22,447 nt of DNA from a virus: the IMG/VR virus record IMGVR_UViG_3300000115_000224, positions 1 through 22,447 of that record; one strand, given 5' to 3'. Below are positions 791 through 18,300 of the stretch, in pieces. Position numbers and translations under genes: made by a program. A model generated the notes under the pieces. The model did no database searches. It saw nothing but the letters and a program-made list of their open reading frames with translations, and was not told the DNA's origin. The first letter of the stretch is position 1, and each line of letters opens with the position of its first letter.

Positions 791-812
791 AAAGGGGGCT
801 TCGGCTCCCTTT
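791..812 (+). terminator. Hairpin terminator with TTCG tetraloop
   Basis: A nine-pair stem (AAAGGGGGC against GCTCCCTTT, one G-U pair) closes a TTCG tetraloop right after the stop at 785. An A-run precedes the stem and the 3' arm ends in TTT, but no long T tract follows. It probably ends the leftmost plus-strand transcript. The A-run would serve as a U tract for a transcript on the other strand, so it may act in both directions. Confidence 0.65.
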
Positions 813-832
813 CAACTACTATCATAAATAGA

Positions 833-851
833 GTCACGCTAGTCGCGTGAC
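833..851. promoter_or_regulatory. Perfect 7-bp inverted repeat between convergent genes
   Basis: GTCACGC (833-839) and GCGTGAC (845-851) are perfect inverted copies separated by five bases. The element lies in the 175-base spacer between convergent genes ending at 785 and 961. It has no T tract on either side, so it could be a protein binding site or a transcript-end stem rather than a classical terminator. The remainder of this spacer (852-942) shows no gene and becomes GC-rich. Confidence 0.35.
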
Positions 852-942
852 ACATGATTGTTTAAATTGAGCCTCCTTACGTCGGCACAGGTTAGTGTGC
901 TCGACTCCCTCGTTCCTCGGTCGCCTCGCGGGAAAAAATGCG

Positions 943-1005
943 CGCGTGGGGCCGCAGGGCTTACAAATCAAGGCCCAAAACACTCGCCGCGTGGGGCCGC
1001 AGGGC
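943..1005. repeat. Direct repeat of an 18-bp GC-rich unit around the nuclease gene end
   Basis: CGCGTGGGGCCGCAGGGC occurs at 943-960 and again at 988-1005, 45 bases apart. On the minus strand both copies are in the same reading frame. The 988-1005 copy encodes the ALRPHA near the C-terminus of the VRR-NUC protein. The other copy begins immediately after that gene's stop codon and would read ALRPHA again. The core TGGGGCCGCAGGGC recurs at 12707-12720, and a variant is at 5045-5060. The surrounding 880-1010 stretch is visibly richer in GC than its neighbours. Confidence 0.7.
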
Positions 1006-1371
1006 CTCAAGCGCGTCCTTCACGGTCCCGTACTCATGGCCCTCCGTTCCATTCAAACCATCCCTCGTTAAGCTAGGTCCTTGATTTCCCTTAAACAAAT
1101 ATAGCTTCTTGAAGGAAAGATCCTTTACTAAGAAGAAATTTGCGCCGCCTCGCGCCCAATATGCCATATTCCACGCAACTTGATGCGCAGATAAATTTAT
1201 TGCGTTGCTTTTGATTGTTTTGAGTTCTACCCAAAAAGGCACACCATCGGCAACAATGTGAACGTCAGGTATTCCCCCGCCATGCTTGTTTTCAATCCGT
1301 GTTGCAAACCACTTACTCGGCAGGTTCCGCCTTATCGACTTCCAAAAGTTCGCCTCCGGTCCCGTGCTCAT
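961..1371 (-). CDS. VRR-NUC / Holliday-junction resolvase-like nuclease
   Basis: This 136-residue protein is a compact PD-(D/E)xK nuclease. Visible are HGGGIPD with Asp36, an ELK with Glu49 and Lys51, and a following SAHQ with Gln64. This is the order expected for VRR-NUC enzymes, which cut branched or flap DNA. Length fits stand-alone phage VRR-NUC proteins. The ATG at 1371 lies inside the end of the small terminase gene (59-base overlap) and has only a weak GGATA ribosome site. Its position after a terminase subunit suggests resolution of branched concatemers during packaging, which is inference. The C-terminus (ALRPHAASVLGLDL) contains one copy of a duplicated GC-rich element. Confidence 0.8.
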   Translation of the reverse strand: MSTGPEANFWKSIRRNLPSKWFATRIENKHGGGIPDVHIVADGVPFWVELKTIKSNAINLSAHQVAWNMAYWARGGANFFLVKDLSFKKLYLFKGNQGPSLTRDGLNGTEGHEYGTVKDALEALRPHAASVLGLDL

Positions 1372-1864
1372 TTGGTGTTATATCCTTATAACTTGTCTCT
1401 ATTTGGAACGCTTGTGGATACTGTTTCTGCAAAGCCGCAAGTCGAGATGTGATCTCATCCCTAGATAATTGATCAATTGTGTTGATGGTTTCACGCCTGT
1501 CGATAGTCAGGCCCCCCAATGCTGACCGTATTTTCTCTGCGTTGATTGCCGCAGAAAACATCCCCGCTTCCTCTGCCCCACGGGATAATTGAAACAAGCG
1601 TTCAAGCTGTCCGATTGTGGTTACACCATACCGGCGCTCTCGTTCGTCCCTGAGTTCTTCAATATACTCCACAACATGTGGGTAGTTTTTTCCGTTCAAC
1701 AAACGGGAAGCGTGTTCCGCTGCAAGATCCGCTTTGTATCCCGCTTTACGGGCACTCTCCGCATTGCTGTATATGCCTTCGACGACATGTTTAGCAAAAG
1801 TCATTTGACGAGTAGTTAGGATGCGGTCGTGCTTATCTTCAATCTCAGCTTTAATAATCGGCAT
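1313..1864 (-). CDS. terS: Terminase small subunit (Terminase_2-like)
   Basis: The product would recognise phage DNA for packaging. The N-terminal region reads LTTRQMTFAKHVVEGIYS, then NAESARKAGYKADLAAEHAS, LLNGKNYPHVVEYIEEL and RRYGVT. That is the typical order of the helix-turn-helix DNA-binding part of Terminase_2 small subunits, followed by a helical region and a variable tail. The frame opens at a TTG at 1900. The ATG at 1864 is preferred because GAGAAAG lies just upstream and the protein then starts MPIIKAEIEDKHD, giving 183 residues. It overlaps the VRR-NUC gene by 59 bases. No large terminase subunit follows, which is unusual. Confidence 0.7.
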   Translation of the reverse strand: MPIIKAEIEDKHDRILTTRQMTFAKHVVEGIYSNAESARKAGYKADLAAEHASRLLNGKNYPHVVEYIEELRDERERRYGVTTIGQLERLFQLSRGAEEAGMFSAAINAEKIRSALGGLTIDRRETINTIDQLSRDEITSRLAALQKQYPQAFQIETSYKDITPNEHGTGGELLEVDKAEPAE

Positions 1865-1998
1865 CGGTTCTTTCTCAATGTTTCCCTCACAATACAACAA
1901 ACAAAACCAGTTTGTCTATAAAGGGAAAACACCCCCTCGTGCCTCAAAACAGAACTTTTTTATTTTTGTTGATGCCTTGGAACCAGTAATTTTACCAA

Positions 1999-5027: not shown

Positions 5028-5234
5028 ATGGGTTTGTTATTAAGCGCGGGACCGCAGGGCAAACGAGCCAAGTGCGAGGTAGTGTGTGCAGATTGTGAGG
5101 AGGAGTGGGTTATGTTTTATTTTCCTGTTTCGGTAGACACCTTAGAGCAATTGACCCGCAGTTTGTGCATTAGTTGTGGCGGAAAGAACCTTGAGTATTT
5201 TGCTGATTGTTTGAAGGATCCGAACGATGATTGA
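5028..5234 (+). CDS. Zinc-ribbon small protein (68 aa)
   Basis: Cys20-x-x-Cys23 (CADC) and Cys47-x-x-Cys50 (CISC) are placed as in a zinc ribbon, with an EEWVMFYFPV strand between them. An extra Cys16 precedes the first knuckle. A zinc ribbon of this size in an early phage operon may bind host RNA polymerase or another nucleic-acid enzyme, but that is speculation. The ribosome site is weak: the nearest GGAGG is about fifteen bases upstream. The N-terminal AGPQGKR is encoded by a variant of the GC-rich dispersed repeat at 5045-5060. Confidence 0.65.
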   Translation: MGLLLSAGPQGKRAKCEVVCADCEEEWVMFYFPVSVDTLEQLTRSLCISCGGKNLEYFADCLKDPNDD

Positions 5235-9810: not shown

Positions 9811-11349
9811 ATGTCAGTAGCAAAAAGAATGATGTCCGCGTTTGAGGGATCAGACCTTGGGTATCTTGTTACTAGAGTTAAGGGCAAAGGTCACAGAGGT
9901 AAAACTGAGGCCGAGTATCGCACAATTCACGGACAAATTGACGAGAGCGTTATGCAATTGCATTTGGACGGCGTAAGTGGGGTGGGAGTTGTCCCTATTT
10001 CTTCTGGTAATGTATGTATGTTTGGGGTGATCGATATCGACGTGTACGATCTTGACCACAAGGATTTACAGGCAAACATTCAACGTTTGAAGTTGCCGTT
10101 GGTACACTGCCGCTCAAAGTCAGGCGGGGCGCATCTCTATCTCTTTTTTAAGGATTGGGAATCTTGTGCCATGGTTCGGGAACTATTGGTTGAGATGCGT
10201 TCTGCGTTGGGTTTTAGCGGTTCGGGAGAACTATTTCCCGCTCAAGAGGTAATTAATGATAAGGACGGGGAGGTTGGAAACGGGATTAACCTTCCGTATT
10301 TTATGTCAGAAACACCCACCCGCTACGCTTATAATAAAAAAGTGGAGGCGTTGGAGGTTGAGGAGTTCTTAGACTTTGTGGAAAAGAACCGAGTTTCGAT
10401 GGCCTCGGTACAAGAGATCGAGTTAAGCGGGGATCAAAAGTATTTTGAAGACGGACCAATCTGTCTACAAATCCTTGCGTCGATGGGCAAGATCACAGAG
10501 AACCGAAACATTTTTATGTTTAACGTGGGCGTGTATTGTAAAAACAAATGGCCTGATGATTGGGAAACTCACCACGAGGAATACAATCGACAGCTATGTG
10601 ATCCTCCTCTGCCGTCGAAGGAAATTGTCGATCAGCAAAGATCTTTAAAGAAAAAGGACGGATACTTTTACCAATGCACAATGTGTCCTCTCAAGGACTA
10701 TTGTAACAAGTCAAAGTGCAAGATGCAAAAGTATGGCATCGGATCGAGTTCTGAGGATCAGGTTCAGATAGGGAGTATTACTATCATGTTATCGGAACCG
10801 CGCTTATACTTCATGAGTGTGGAGGGAAAGTCACTCACGCTTTCAACAGATCAATTACAAAACCCCACGCTTTGGCAAAAAGCTTGTATGGAACAGTTGG
10901 ATATGATGCCGCCTGTACCAACACGGGGAGATTGGCAACAGTTAATCAATGGTATGTTAAGTACCTCAACCAAACAAGAGGTGGCACCAGAGCTTACACG
11001 GGCAGGGAAGTTTGAAAACCTGCTCCGCAAATTCTGCACAAGCCACATTCGAGCAGTAACACCCGAAGAGGTTCTGTCTGGGAAACCTTGGACAGACAGA
11101 GGCAAGACGATGTTTCGCATCGATTCTTTCGAAAAGTTCCTACGCAACAATGACTTCACTGATTTTACTACGGGTCGGATACAGGAGCACATTCAACGTT
11201 TGAACAGCAACGAAGAGTGCCATGGGAAACTAAACTACACGAAGGACGATGGTAAAAGATCAAACACACGAGTGTGGTGGGTTCCTGAGTTTGAAAACTT
11301 AGACGTAGAAATAGATGTTAAGGAGAATAAATATGATATCCCATTCTAA
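9811..11349 (+). CDS. Archaeo-eukaryotic primase (TOTE-type AEP) with Cys cluster
   Basis: The product would make primers and possibly extend them. The AEP core shows a DxD catalytic pair in FGVIDIDVYD (Asp75, Asp77), a nucleotide-binding SKSGGAHLYLFF segment (His108), and GNGINLPY (157-163), in the order of TOTE-type primases. A second domain holds a four-cysteine cluster CTMCPLKDYCNKSKC (Cys289, 292, 298, 303), which may bind zinc or an iron-sulfur cluster, as in primase large subunits. The last residues are KYDIPF, similar to the SSB tip. GGGAG six bases before the ATG supports the start. The end overlaps the ribosome site and start of the next gene. Confidence 0.78.
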   Translation: MSVAKRMMSAFEGSDLGYLVTRVKGKGHRGKTEAEYRTIHGQIDESVMQLHLDGVSGVGVVPISSGNVCMFGVIDIDVYDLDHKDLQANIQRLKLPLVHCRSKSGGAHLYLFFKDWESCAMVRELLVEMRSALGFSGSGELFPAQEVINDKDGEVGNGINLPYFMSETPTRYAYNKKVEALEVEEFLDFVEKNRVSMASVQEIELSGDQKYFEDGPICLQILASMGKITENRNIFMFNVGVYCKNKWPDDWETHHEEYNRQLCDPPLPSKEIVDQQRSLKKKDGYFYQCTMCPLKDYCNKSKCKMQKYGIGSSSEDQVQIGSITIMLSEPRLYFMSVEGKSLTLSTDQLQNPTLWQKACMEQLDMMPPVPTRGDWQQLINGMLSTSTKQEVAPELTRAGKFENLLRKFCTSHIRAVTPEEVLSGKPWTDRGKTMFRIDSFEKFLRNNDFTDFTTGRIQEHIQRLNSNEECHGKLNYTKDDGKRSNTRVWWVPEFENLDVEIDVKENKYDIPF

Positions 11350-11566: not shown

Positions 11567-13097
11567 GTCGGAATTAATTTTTGGTCCGCCAGGAACGGGT
11601 AAAACATACACTTTAATCAAAGAGGTGGAGACAGCCCTTGCAAGGGGCGTTGCTCCTGACCGCATAGGTTATGTGTCTTTTACCAAGAAGGCCATCCAAG
11701 AGGCCATAGAACGAGCCTGTGGGCAATTTGGCATCGACCAGAAGCAGTTGCCATGGTTTCGCACACTGCACTCATGGGGGTTTAATGGCATAGGCGCGAG
11801 TTCTACCGACATGATGTCCTCGGAAGATTGGGGCGTTTTGGGCCGTGAGGTAGGAATGAAATTTTCAGGAGCTTCAAGGGTCAACCCCGATGAAGGGTTG
11901 TTGTTAGCGCCGGAGAGCGAGTTCGAAGCAGGAGACACGTATCTGCGTATGATTGACCGTGCGCGGTATCGAATGGTGTCTATTGAGCAAGAGTTTAATG
12001 AAGCAGAAGATTGGAGCAAAGACTTTAACATCCTGCGCAGGGTGCAAAAAGAGTATGCGCTGTATAAATCTAAGTTAAATAAAATCGATTTCGTGGATCA
12101 GATCGAACTATACATAGACTGCGGTATGCCACCGTATCTTGAAATGTTGATTATTGACGAGGCACAAGACCTAACCCCGTTGCAATGGGCGATGATAACG
12201 AAGATCTCAAAGAATGCCGAGCGTGTACTTATTGCAGGAGATGACGATCAAGCGATCCATAGGTGGACAGGTGTGGACATACGGAAGTTTCTTGAATCAT
12301 CAGACAATATCCGCGTTCTTTCGCAAAGCTATCGAATGCCAGAAAAGGTACACCTTCTGTCACAAAGGATTGTAAAGCGGATTAGTTTACGCAAAGAAAA
12401 GTTGTTCCATCCAACGGATGATGAGGGCCGTGTAGACTGGCATTACAGCGCAGACGACTTGGATTTGGACAATGGTTCATGGACCTTAATGGCTAGAACA
12501 AATAAATACATTCGTCGTTGGGGCGATACGCTGCGGGACCAAGGGTATTTGTACTCTTACAAGGGGCATAGCAGCGTAAATCAAAAGTCTGCCAATGCTA
12601 TGAACACATGGCGCAAGCTGCAAGCGGGTGAAGGTGTTGAACTTGGATTGATCCGTGACTTTTACAAACATGTGCGCAAGCGCGGGGATTTGGCTGTCGT
12701 AAAACATGGGGCCGCAGGGCTTTTAGATGCAGCCGCACCGGATGCGTTTTTGACATGGGATGATTTAGCTATGCAGTTTGGTATGGTCGCAGATAAAGAG
12801 CGCGATGCGTTTGAAGTTGCGAGATTCGGGGATGACGAGCGGATGTACATAGAGTCCCTTATTCGTCGGGGTGAGGATGTGACTTCGACACCTCGGATTA
12901 AACTTTCTACGTTTCACAGCATGAAGGGAGGAGAGGACGATAACTGCGCAGTGTTTTCAAAGGTGCCTCCGATCTGTGACATCAGAACAACAAAGACCCC
13001 AGACGATGAGCACCGTTGTATGTACGTGGGGATCACACGATCAAAGCACAGCTTACACATTATCGATCCTCCAGGGAGAAACAAATATGAGTTCTAA
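11556..13097 (+). CDS. UvrD/PcrA-like SF1 DNA helicase
   Basis: Motifs appear in order: Walker A GPPGTGKT (10-17), Ia SFTKKA (about 41-46), motif II DEAQD (201-205), motif III AGDDDQAIHRW (227-237), motif IV QSYRMP (257-262), motif V STFHSMKGGE (451-460) and motif VI HRCMYVGITRS (486-496). It belongs to the 3'-5' UvrD/PcrA group. At 513 residues it is shorter than bacterial UvrD (about 720), with reduced 1B and 2B insertions. As the only helicase in the replication operon it could serve at the fork. AGGGGGT eight bases upstream supports the start. The segment HGAAGL (384-389) is encoded by a copy of the GC-rich dispersed repeat. Confidence 0.9.
   Translation: MIPKSELIFGPPGTGKTYTLIKEVETALARGVAPDRIGYVSFTKKAIQEAIERACGQFGIDQKQLPWFRTLHSWGFNGIGASSTDMMSSEDWGVLGREVGMKFSGASRVNPDEGLLLAPESEFEAGDTYLRMIDRARYRMVSIEQEFNEAEDWSKDFNILRRVQKEYALYKSKLNKIDFVDQIELYIDCGMPPYLEMLIIDEAQDLTPLQWAMITKISKNAERVLIAGDDDQAIHRWTGVDIRKFLESSDNIRVLSQSYRMPEKVHLLSQRIVKRISLRKEKLFHPTDDEGRVDWHYSADDLDLDNGSWTLMARTNKYIRRWGDTLRDQGYLYSYKGHSSVNQKSANAMNTWRKLQAGEGVELGLIRDFYKHVRKRGDLAVVKHGAAGLLDAAAPDAFLTWDDLAMQFGMVADKERDAFEVARFGDDERMYIESLIRRGEDVTSTPRIKLSTFHSMKGGEDDNCAVFSKVPPICDIRTTKTPDDEHRCMYVGITRSKHSLHIIDPPGRNKYEF
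12707..12720. repeat. Third copy of the TGGGGCCGCAGGGC element, inside the helicase gene
   Basis: TGGGGCCGCAGGGC here is identical to the cores at 947-960 and 992-1005. The match to the first copy extends through the following TT. It is in-frame coding DNA for part of HGAAGL in the helicase, at a place between conserved motifs. Three exact 14-base matches in 22 kb are far more than chance would give. Confidence 0.6.
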
Positions 13098-15337: not shown

Positions 15338-18300
15338 CCAAAGCCTGTGTTGCCGGATCATTGCCAAGGATTGTGGGGTCCACTTGGGCCGTTGCCGTTT
15401 GAATCGGCTGTGGCATAGGTGGAGTCAACATTCCCTGCTGTTGGGGGATTAAGTCGTCGAAGTTCAACGCCGGAGGTTGTTGTTGTGGGATCAAGTCGTC
15501 GAAGTTCATTGCCGGAGGCGCGGCACGAGGTGCGGGTTCCGGCGAAGCAACGGACAGAGGCTGTCGTTTACGGTCTCTGGAGCGTTGATTGAACGGAGAA
15601 AAGTCAGACATATCTGTTAAAAACGTCCGGCCTTCAGCTTTACGCATTCTTATCAAATCTTTCCACAATTCTTGACTTGCATCAGTGGGCCAAAACTCTC
15701 CGTTCATAATAGCGTTGGCTTCGGCATTACCTAATCGTGCTCCTTGAACCAAGTTCTGTCTGATAATTGTGTTCTGACGAGATTTACTTAGACCAGGCAT
15801 CAACTTCCGAGCGGCCTCTATGTCTTGGTACAATTTGCTTTGCTCACGATACAAGTTATCAAGATAAGTATCCCAAGAACGAACCATATCAGATTGTGTA
15901 AGGTTCGCCCGTTTCATGTCTCGTTGAGCAGCACTTTTTGCCTCTGTGCGGCGAGGGGTATATGCCTTCCCTGCAAAAGCAAAATCGTTGCGGATGTCTA
16001 GGGTCATGGGTGTAAACCCTGTTACCAAACGAGCGCCTTCTTTAAAAATGTTATACTCTTCACCACGGTTTCCTGGGGATCCAGTAATCGAGCGTAATAC
16101 TCGACCCTGATTGAACATTTCTCTTGGTACTGTAACAGAAAGTGGGCGATCAACTTCCGCAATTAGTTTAGCGTATTCAGGAATCACACCATTCATTATG
16201 TGCCCAAGAGACTTATCAATCTTGTCACCCAAAGAATCTGTGCGGTTGTAAATCGGAATACCATCTTGGTTTCGGCCCCCGCGTCCAAAGACAGACGCGA
16301 CAGGAACCCCCGAAGACGGTAATACATCTGCTAGTCTTTCATAAATTAAAGATTCTTCCCCAAACGGCTCTGCAAACATCCGTAAACCTGTGAATGCCGC
16401 TGCGCCTATGCGTTCTACTTGGTTCTTGTCGAGCTTTCCTTGTCTACCATACACTTCTAATGCTGCACGAACAGGATCAAGGACAAAGGCGTAAGGGCTA
16501 ACGTAGCTAAGATCAATGTAATCCAGCTTTCCTTTCTGGTCGTTGTTCAAAATTACCAGTTGATGCCCTGCCATATACGTTGGCAAACGAGATTTTAAGG
16601 CGTCATATTGCTCTTCAGTAGTTCCGGTTGCATACATCGAGGCTTTAACAGCCTGCGAGGGGCCGATAGATGCGACAGTCGCATAGGACATGAGACGTTG
16701 AGCACCCGCACCACGGATTTGTTTCTCAAAAATAGAAGCAGCTTCCTCTCCGATCTCTGCTCTGGTGTCCGCAGGAATTGTGAAAGACATTTCTTTCAGC
16801 CCACGGTCCAAGATGTTTGCTGAGTTACGAATATTTTCTGAAGCAAAAGAAGTAAAATTACCAATTAGAGGAACAATGTCCAAAGCACGGACAGCCTTAC
16901 CAATCCGTGTGTAGATAGGCATGGTGTCTTTAACTATATCTGCTGCCATAACTTCATGCGGTAAAAGGTCTGAACCCTTGTCAAACTCTGTCACCGCGCT
17001 CTTATAACGCTTGGCAAGTCCTCCTTGAATCAATGCTTCATAAACTCGAAAATCGTCAGGATTAAGTCCTGACGCTTCAAACGCATTTAAAATTTTCTTT
17101 TCTTCTCCCAACAAAGCAAGAGCTTTAAAGAAAGTGTCCGATTCACCATAGACTTTTTCAAACGTCTGCATGAAAGGGATCTTGTCTGTCCATACATCAA
17201 CTGTTTTGGCGACTTTCATTGCGCTACCAGTAAGGTCTTCTCCTGCTCTTGCAAAATCCTTCAGGGATCGAACAACCAAGTTGGTATCTTCAACGCCGGA
17301 CAAAGAAATCTTTTTTGCCATACGTGTAAGTCCAGCCTCTTCCATGTCCGCAAGGCTAGAAGTTAAAACCTTAAACACATCGCTAAAGTCAGTGTCCCTT
17401 CCTATATTTGCGTTGCCACCAAGCATCGCAAGGTTGCCTGCAACATTTCGAACTTGCGCCCCAGGATTTGGTACGATTGTCATTTTTTGAGACAAAGACC
17501 GTAGCTGAGATAACACACCCGCTGCTTCACCCAAAAAGGTATTGCTGCCAAATCGTAACGGAGCAGTGATTGCCCCGTAGGTTTCAGGGGAAACCAACCG
17601 ACCTGTTAACTCTCCGTAAGATCCACCAAAAACATGCTGAATATCACGGCTTTCACCTAACTGGCGATACCCCTTTTTGTTGATTAAGTCATCGCGGAAT
17701 TGCTTAATAACTTGTTCAGCGGGATCGACATATACTACATTCCCCGCTTGATCAACGACTTCGGCTTTAAGTCCTTGATCTCTTGCGATTGTTCTGAACG
17801 GCTGCTTGGCGAGATCATACTGCTCTGGAGTCATCCGCATTGCGTCGGGTAAATCAATAATTGCTGGACGACCACCTTGGTTAAGCATCTTCATGCCTTC
17901 GACCGCATCGACGGCTAGACCCTGATCAAGCATGGCTCGATACATATCAGCCGCTGCATTGGCCTGTGCCACATCAGAAATAGTCTTTTTGTAGACTTCC
18001 CTAGTATTTGTTATTTCGCCTTTTAGCTTTCTTAGATTGGGACTTTTATCTAGCAAAGGTTCCCTAGCAATGAACAAATCATCAAAAGAAGTAAGCACGG
18101 GGCGATCAGTGGCAACAAGTCCTGTTTTGCCGCCTTTTGCTGCTCTAGTAACCTCTTTAATCTTATCTTTTAAAACTACATCAGGAGGTGTCCCTGTTAT
18201 TGTATAAAGGCCAAGTGTGTCTAACACACGCTCTTTGGCTAATGCACGAGTGTTGTCGTCAACAACCTGACCAGACGGAACAACAATCCTCGCAACTTCC

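Follow-up and report, generated by a model that had tools for sequence, protein, structure and literature searches.

A GC-rich 18-base unit, GCCCTGCGGCCCCACGCG, is found twice at the 3' end of a small nuclease gene that adjoins the gene of the terminase small subunit (TerS) in a 22,447-bp virus record, taken here at full length as the window. An exact duplication on both sides of a stop codon raises the question of what is conserved, the end of the protein or the DNA itself, and of which function such a repeat might serve beside terminase genes.

The repeat and the genes around it

Both exact copies are on the minus strand, 45 nt apart. Copy 1 (988-1005) lies inside the nuclease gene, where it is read as ALRPHA, and copy 2 (943-960) stands directly 3' of the stop codon, followed in this class by a T-run. 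A previous sequence-only reading had described this in-frame arrangement correctly, together with the open frame beyond the gene: the minus strand reads ...EALRPHAASVLGLDL up to the stop and then ALRPHARIFSREATEERGSRAH up to the next one, 22 codons being open after the first stop. It erred in taking ALRPHA for the very C-terminus, since these are residues 123-128 of a 136-aa protein and eight more precede the stop. The GC-rich patch that it reported is confirmed by a GC content of 0.66 in positions 901-1020 versus ~0.4-0.5 in the surrounding DNA.

Apart from the two exact copies, the only window matches to the 18-mer with up to 3 mismatches are two minus strand sites with 3 mismatches each, while dinucleotide-preserving shuffles yield a mean of 0.02. 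The first (12703-12720) is antisense to a UvrD-like helicase gene and carries the 14-base core exactly at 12707-12720, as had been noticed before; the second (5043-5060), previously seen as a variant at 5045-5060, overlaps in antisense the opening codons of a 68-aa ORF. The window also encodes a primase with an AEP-TOTE domain match (9811-11349), and a 41-nt direct repeat with 42-nt spacing (15436-15518) forms part of the coding sequence near the C-terminus of a 1469-aa ORF.

The nuclease gene (961-1371, minus strand) is overlapped at its start, by 59 nt, by the terS gene (1313-1900, minus strand; PF03592). Its product is predicted, from profile matches and a structural model, to be a PD-(D/E)XK nuclease with the Holliday-junction-resolvase fold. 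The profile matches are to PHROG 2165 and 93 only, and the best hit of a PDB profile search is Hjc (E 0.04). The AlphaFold2 model (pLDDT 88) has its best PDB matches in Hjc and RecU and a weaker one in VRR_NUC 4qbn (E 4e-3), and it resembles also the homing endonuclease I-Ssp6803I. The protein features PD...ExK...Q residues, which we take to be the motif of VRR-Nuc enzymes and Holliday-junction resolvases. The VRR-NUC label given earlier holds for the predicted fold but not for Pfam, which assigns the protein to none of its families, VRR_NUC included. VRR-Nuc-like is a fair name for the predicted protein; membership of the family is not proven by sequence.

Repeat arrays in related viruses

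Relatives of the nuclease came from a scan of viral contigs in which the best 80 of 438 were used, further ones being added later. Altogether 133 nuclease loci were examined, two of them left out because the nuclease gene runs off the contig, and each of the 131 closed nuclease genes shares its locus with a TerS match. In the whole viral contig collection 60 stretches contain the exact 18-mer, 45 of them twice. Every one of the 60 adjoins this nuclease and TerS; a host-derived fragment, among the options first raised, is not supported. Five candidate stretches were retrieved from bacterial genomes scanned with the nuclease protein, none of which encodes a relative. No tRNA was found in the window, and an attachment-site reading of the repeat has nothing seen here in its favour. 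The idea of a short dispersed phage repeat holds in so far as weaker oriented copies are present elsewhere in the genome, but the repeat is chiefly an array at one place. A tandem duplication that shortened the gene does not account for the data either: the nucleases vary from 129 to 164 aa and the repeat is found on both sides of the stop and in any of the frames, so that no single shortening event explains it. Rather than homologues ending at the same residue and devoid of the repeat, more copies and varying C-termini are observed. A DNA search of the repeat patch against deposited phages gave no match, and a literature search found no description of the array in print, which is no proof of its absence. 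Judged from sequence, the repeat is a phage array with oriented weaker copies and not a stray fragment.

In the 18-mer class copy 1 always spells ALRPHA. Copy 2 is found in all three frames (ALRPHA, CGPTRA, SPAAPRA), on either side of the stop and at a spacing of 27-72 nt from copy 1 across loci. Synonymous-codon identity of the ALRPHA codons among 16 non-redundant ALRPHA nucleases reaches 0.958, compared to a mean of 0.584 (sd 0.135) over 131 six-codon segments. This is the highest value of them all, the next independent peak being at the gene overlap with TerS. ALR is invariant among 20 aligned nucleases, yet in three loci (L113, L122 and L130) its codons differ from the repeat and an intact array stands just beyond. 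A conserved ALRPHA protein tail was rejected on account of these frozen codons, of the three frames of copy 2 and of the arrays past ALR; as far as codons and frames can tell, the repeat is conserved as DNA rather than as protein.

Homologues without the 18-mer carry a repeat of their own in its position: either GCCTTGCGGCTC or TCTTGCGGCCCG, or else CTTGCGCC or TCTGCGCC in runs. A second copy of the 12-mer was searched for in the 130 nt downstream in 41 of 44 representatives, the three without ALR being left out. The best second copy is on average 0.61 bases off, versus 3.88 upstream and 4.35 in shuffles, and is significant (p<=0.05) in 36 of the 41. The two copies match each other far better within genomes than between them, with a mismatch sum of 25 against 65.9 (sd 4.7) when permuted, none of 5000 permutations reaching the observed sum. 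The basic unit behaves as a 7-8-bp word, YYTGCGSC, whose clusters are found 70 times on the nuclease strand and never on the other one. Thirty-seven of these octamer clusters are at the nuclease end, counting those of L174, L176, L177 and L178 that start at -167, and 33 are farther away. Clusters of at least three units occur at the nuclease end and, in several lineages, again 0.8-1.6 kb downstream with an identical unit, giving one to three array clusters per locus with a variable number of units. In L208 (G023) a conserved gene of 226-230 aa with Cys (phrog_2554) lies on the opposite strand between arrays 1 and 2, at ~12.5-13.4 kb. In the genomes in which terL was located the array runs along it, TerL being on the array's strand in G002. 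A guessed pattern, GCCGCAGGGCNNCAG, had no match in six contigs.

The nuclease of phage psg01 is only 33% identical to that of the window, and repeats GCTTGCTC are present between its terS and terL. In psg01 and 63 distinct related loci a GC-rich GCTTGCTCGCTC array is found at the nuclease end (GC 0.58 versus 0.38 for the 63 loci overall), GCTYGC occurring in the 63 loci 519 times forward and 9 times in reverse at the nuclease 3' end. The TerS of psg01 is divergent, hence the array follows the nuclease end in this phage. HTVC027P has heptamer arrays GCTTGNN between terS and terL; its 16 GCTTGNNGCTTG doublets are all forward and all in that interval, with none elsewhere in 50 kb. A 33-bp x 2.9 array stands directly past terS in HTVC023P, and DSL-LC04 features GC-rich arrays just before terL. 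A tblastn search with the nuclease gave no match in HTVC023P and HTVC027P. Over nine genomes, of which four named records were taken for their first 45-50 kb only, tandem repeats are ~3-fold enriched between terS and terL (13 in 63.6 kb versus 23 in 345.1 kb, p 0.002). This count excludes periods divisible by 3, so the HTVC023P 33-mer array is not part of it, and under the same rule three R18-class contigs score 0 in the interval.

Departures between the nuclease and TerS lineages are informative on what the unit follows. L182 combines a TerS of R18-type lineage with a TGCGC-type array, and L130 and L113 have nuclease and array type in common but different TerS. On the strength of these mismatches the unit goes with the nuclease beside it and not with TerS, and the comparison of the TerS and nuclease trees leans at most slightly against TerS as the putative reader of the array.

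Weaker copies and the flank of the array

Outside the array, sites with up to 3 mismatches in six R18-class genomes are all on the array strand (11 versus 0), while shuffled motifs give a mean of 0.03; some of them are homologous positions in related phages, so the 11 do not all represent independent events. Their distance from the array is 4-13 kb on its upstream side; most are antisense to early genes, and genomes of the TGCGC and GCTC classes nearly lack such sites. Antisense control of early mRNAs was considered and rejected, the early-gene sites showing no general closeness to starts.

The array is followed first by short stem-loops, from one to several of them, next by a fixed linker and then by the opposing gene's terminator. 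In the window these are a GC-rich block, GGCGACC-GAGGAACGA-GGGAGTC (903-925, minus strand), an imperfect stem-loop conserved as judged by eye and whose GAGGAACGA loop was tabulated; a stem-loop GTCACGC-GACTA-GCGTGAC (833-851, minus strand) that belongs to a family with a fixed loop and compensated stems; the linker TTCAACTACTATCATA (811-826), conserved in relatives; and a terminator-like hairpin GGGGGCTTCGGCTCCC (794-809, plus strand) of the convergent gene 540-785, beyond which the variable gene content of the relatives begins. Pairing is kept in GACTA-loop hairpins while the stem varies, a single one of 30 having a mismatch. Fixed loops with compensated stems (GACTA, GAGGAACGA, GACGAAGGA, CTTG and TCATTA) occur in variable number, and the fixed-loop hairpins, at 833-851 and in the equivalent region of relatives, are common to phages with quite different nucleases.

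Alignments end 0-10 bp past the terminator in 19 of 33 pairs with nucleases at least 97% identical and a recognised terminator, some of the pairs coming from near-identical contigs. The array is thus also at the edge of variable gene content. Phages that are near-identical in other respects have different small genes convergent to the nuclease (331-810 in the window), the swap falling exactly at the terminator. Variable gene content at nuclease genes is described for other phages (PMC10448857). A different set of repeats lies between terS and the early genes, at 1999-2112, with TTGAGGACA/TGTCCTCAA boxes and three consecutive copies of GGTGAGGAC; these iterons could be an operator or an origin.

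Candidate functions and known counterparts

The two 18-mers are, by comparison with the relatives, the form taken in one lineage by a short array of direct repeats, all in one direction, between the terminase genes. The reading that we favour, with a probability of about 0.4, is a pac-like array recognised for initiation of DNA packaging, likened to SPP1 pac because of its place, orientation, repetition and lineage-specific units. TerS, or terminase together with the adjacent resolvase-fold nuclease, would bind the repeats on concatemeric DNA, TerL would cut nearby and packaging would proceed in the direction of terL and of the structural genes. The unit would diverge along with its reader, and copy 1 would overlap the nuclease C-terminus because the array spread over a variable gene end. 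The array is found, as expected of a pac site, in or adjoining terS or between terS and terL, and it is made of repeated elements. Repeats are not universal in pac sites, the P22 pac being a 22-bp asymmetric sequence, and TerS specificity is debated (PMC9611059). In vitro, SF6 TerS is reported to be little selective for its repeats (PMC4737164), which counts against a pac. So do the departures of unit type from TerS type in L182 and L130, as regards TerS binding, and a tandem-repeat enrichment of only ~3-fold between terS and terL; the oriented weaker copies in early genes (11 versus 0) are unexpected for a single pac. Two relatives are deposited as circular records, which fits permuted ends and proves nothing. 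Most relatives' contigs run across the array region, nearby contig ends coinciding with the variable junction.

The strongest rival, though rather unlikely, is that the array is the address of the adjacent nuclease, which would nick or cut there to set off packaging, recombination or an exchange of gene cassettes. It would then be loosely comparable to the HNH-cos pair of HK97, or to a homing nuclease whose resident site is fixed. The array tracks the nuclease 3' end even in psg01 with its divergent TerS, the unit type goes with the nuclease, gene content changes within 10 bp of the array-side terminator in the 19 of 33 pairs, and the fold is akin to that of I-Ssp6803I. Array and nuclease are, however, physically linked, so that tracking is expected whatever the reader; HTVC023P and HTVC027P have arrays and no tblastn nuclease match; and standalone VRR-Nuc enzymes are structure-selective, one that was assayed not cleaving linear duplex (PMC4103454). 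A bolder reading is doubtful: a structure-selective resolvase-fold family would have turned into a sequence-addressed packaging partner, always travelling with TerS and a 3'-fused directional array whose unit changes with the nuclease lineage and not with TerS. The site of the array may double as an edge for swaps of small accessory genes.

Improbable is a multi-site operator through which a phage regulator would control both the convergent small genes and the terminase operon. In its favour, other lineages have arrays 2 and 3 ~100 nt upstream of the start codons of opposing genes, and weaker sites are present in early genes. Operators do not usually have so strict a single orientation or stand at the 3' ends of genes, and the early-gene sites are found in mid-gene and near starts equally often.

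Chi octamers are GC-rich, octamer-sized and polar, like the array unit with its single orientation. Polar sites of this kind would stop a host RecBCD/AddAB-type enzyme that entered from the terminase cut and ran away from the packaged side, and the weaker copies are confined to one side of the array, at 4-13 kb, with none at up to 3 mismatches on the other. Such a role is very unlikely, since HTVC023P and HTVC027P, recorded on one host strain, carry unrelated arrays, which a motif read by the host would forbid; genomes of the TGCGC and GCTC classes have, moreover, nearly no dispersed copies. Array units thus differ from Chi in being clustered at one locus and in varying between phages of one host.

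Replication origin iterons, suggested by the direct repeats and AT-rich stretch of SPP1 origins (PMC6316719), are very unlikely: no turn of the GC skew coincides with the array in psg01, HTVC027P and HTVC023P, and the window has separate iterons at 1999-2112. Equally unlikely is an RNA element from the end of the terminase operon, be it a terminator, an antisense regulator or a structure in the 3'UTR. In many loci copy 2 is followed by a T-run, and real stem-loops stand farther on, but in five sequences the array did not surpass shuffles in folding (z -0.39 to +1.73) and an Rfam search gave no match.

To our knowledge, packaging sites are rarely known outside model phages. An array readable from sequence, running along terL in a widespread marine phage group, predicts the start and direction of packaging, and two relatives in which this prediction could be examined, HTVC023P and HTVC027P, are in culture. 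Should the nuclease be the reader of the array, a repair-type nuclease would be tied to packaging or gene exchange.

Standalone phage VRR-Nuc enzymes and Holliday-junction resolvases share the predicted fold and PD...ExK...Q residues with the window nuclease, which differs from them in being constantly accompanied by TerS and by a repeat array where its gene ends. Another small nuclease gene adjoining terminase and the packaging site is that of the HK97 HNH nuclease gp74 (PMC10448857, PMC11331095); here the predicted fold is of the resolvase and not the HNH type, cos-type ends are not indicated and many contigs cross the region. The closest comparison is with SPP1 pac (pacL/pacC/pacR, boxA/B/C), which has direct repeats in and beside terS with a lineage-specific sequence, as found here (PMC4737164, PMC6316719). 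Unlike in SPP1, the candidate site described here occupies the 3' end of a nuclease gene past terS and has one to three clusters of 7-8-bp units, in variable number and in a single orientation.
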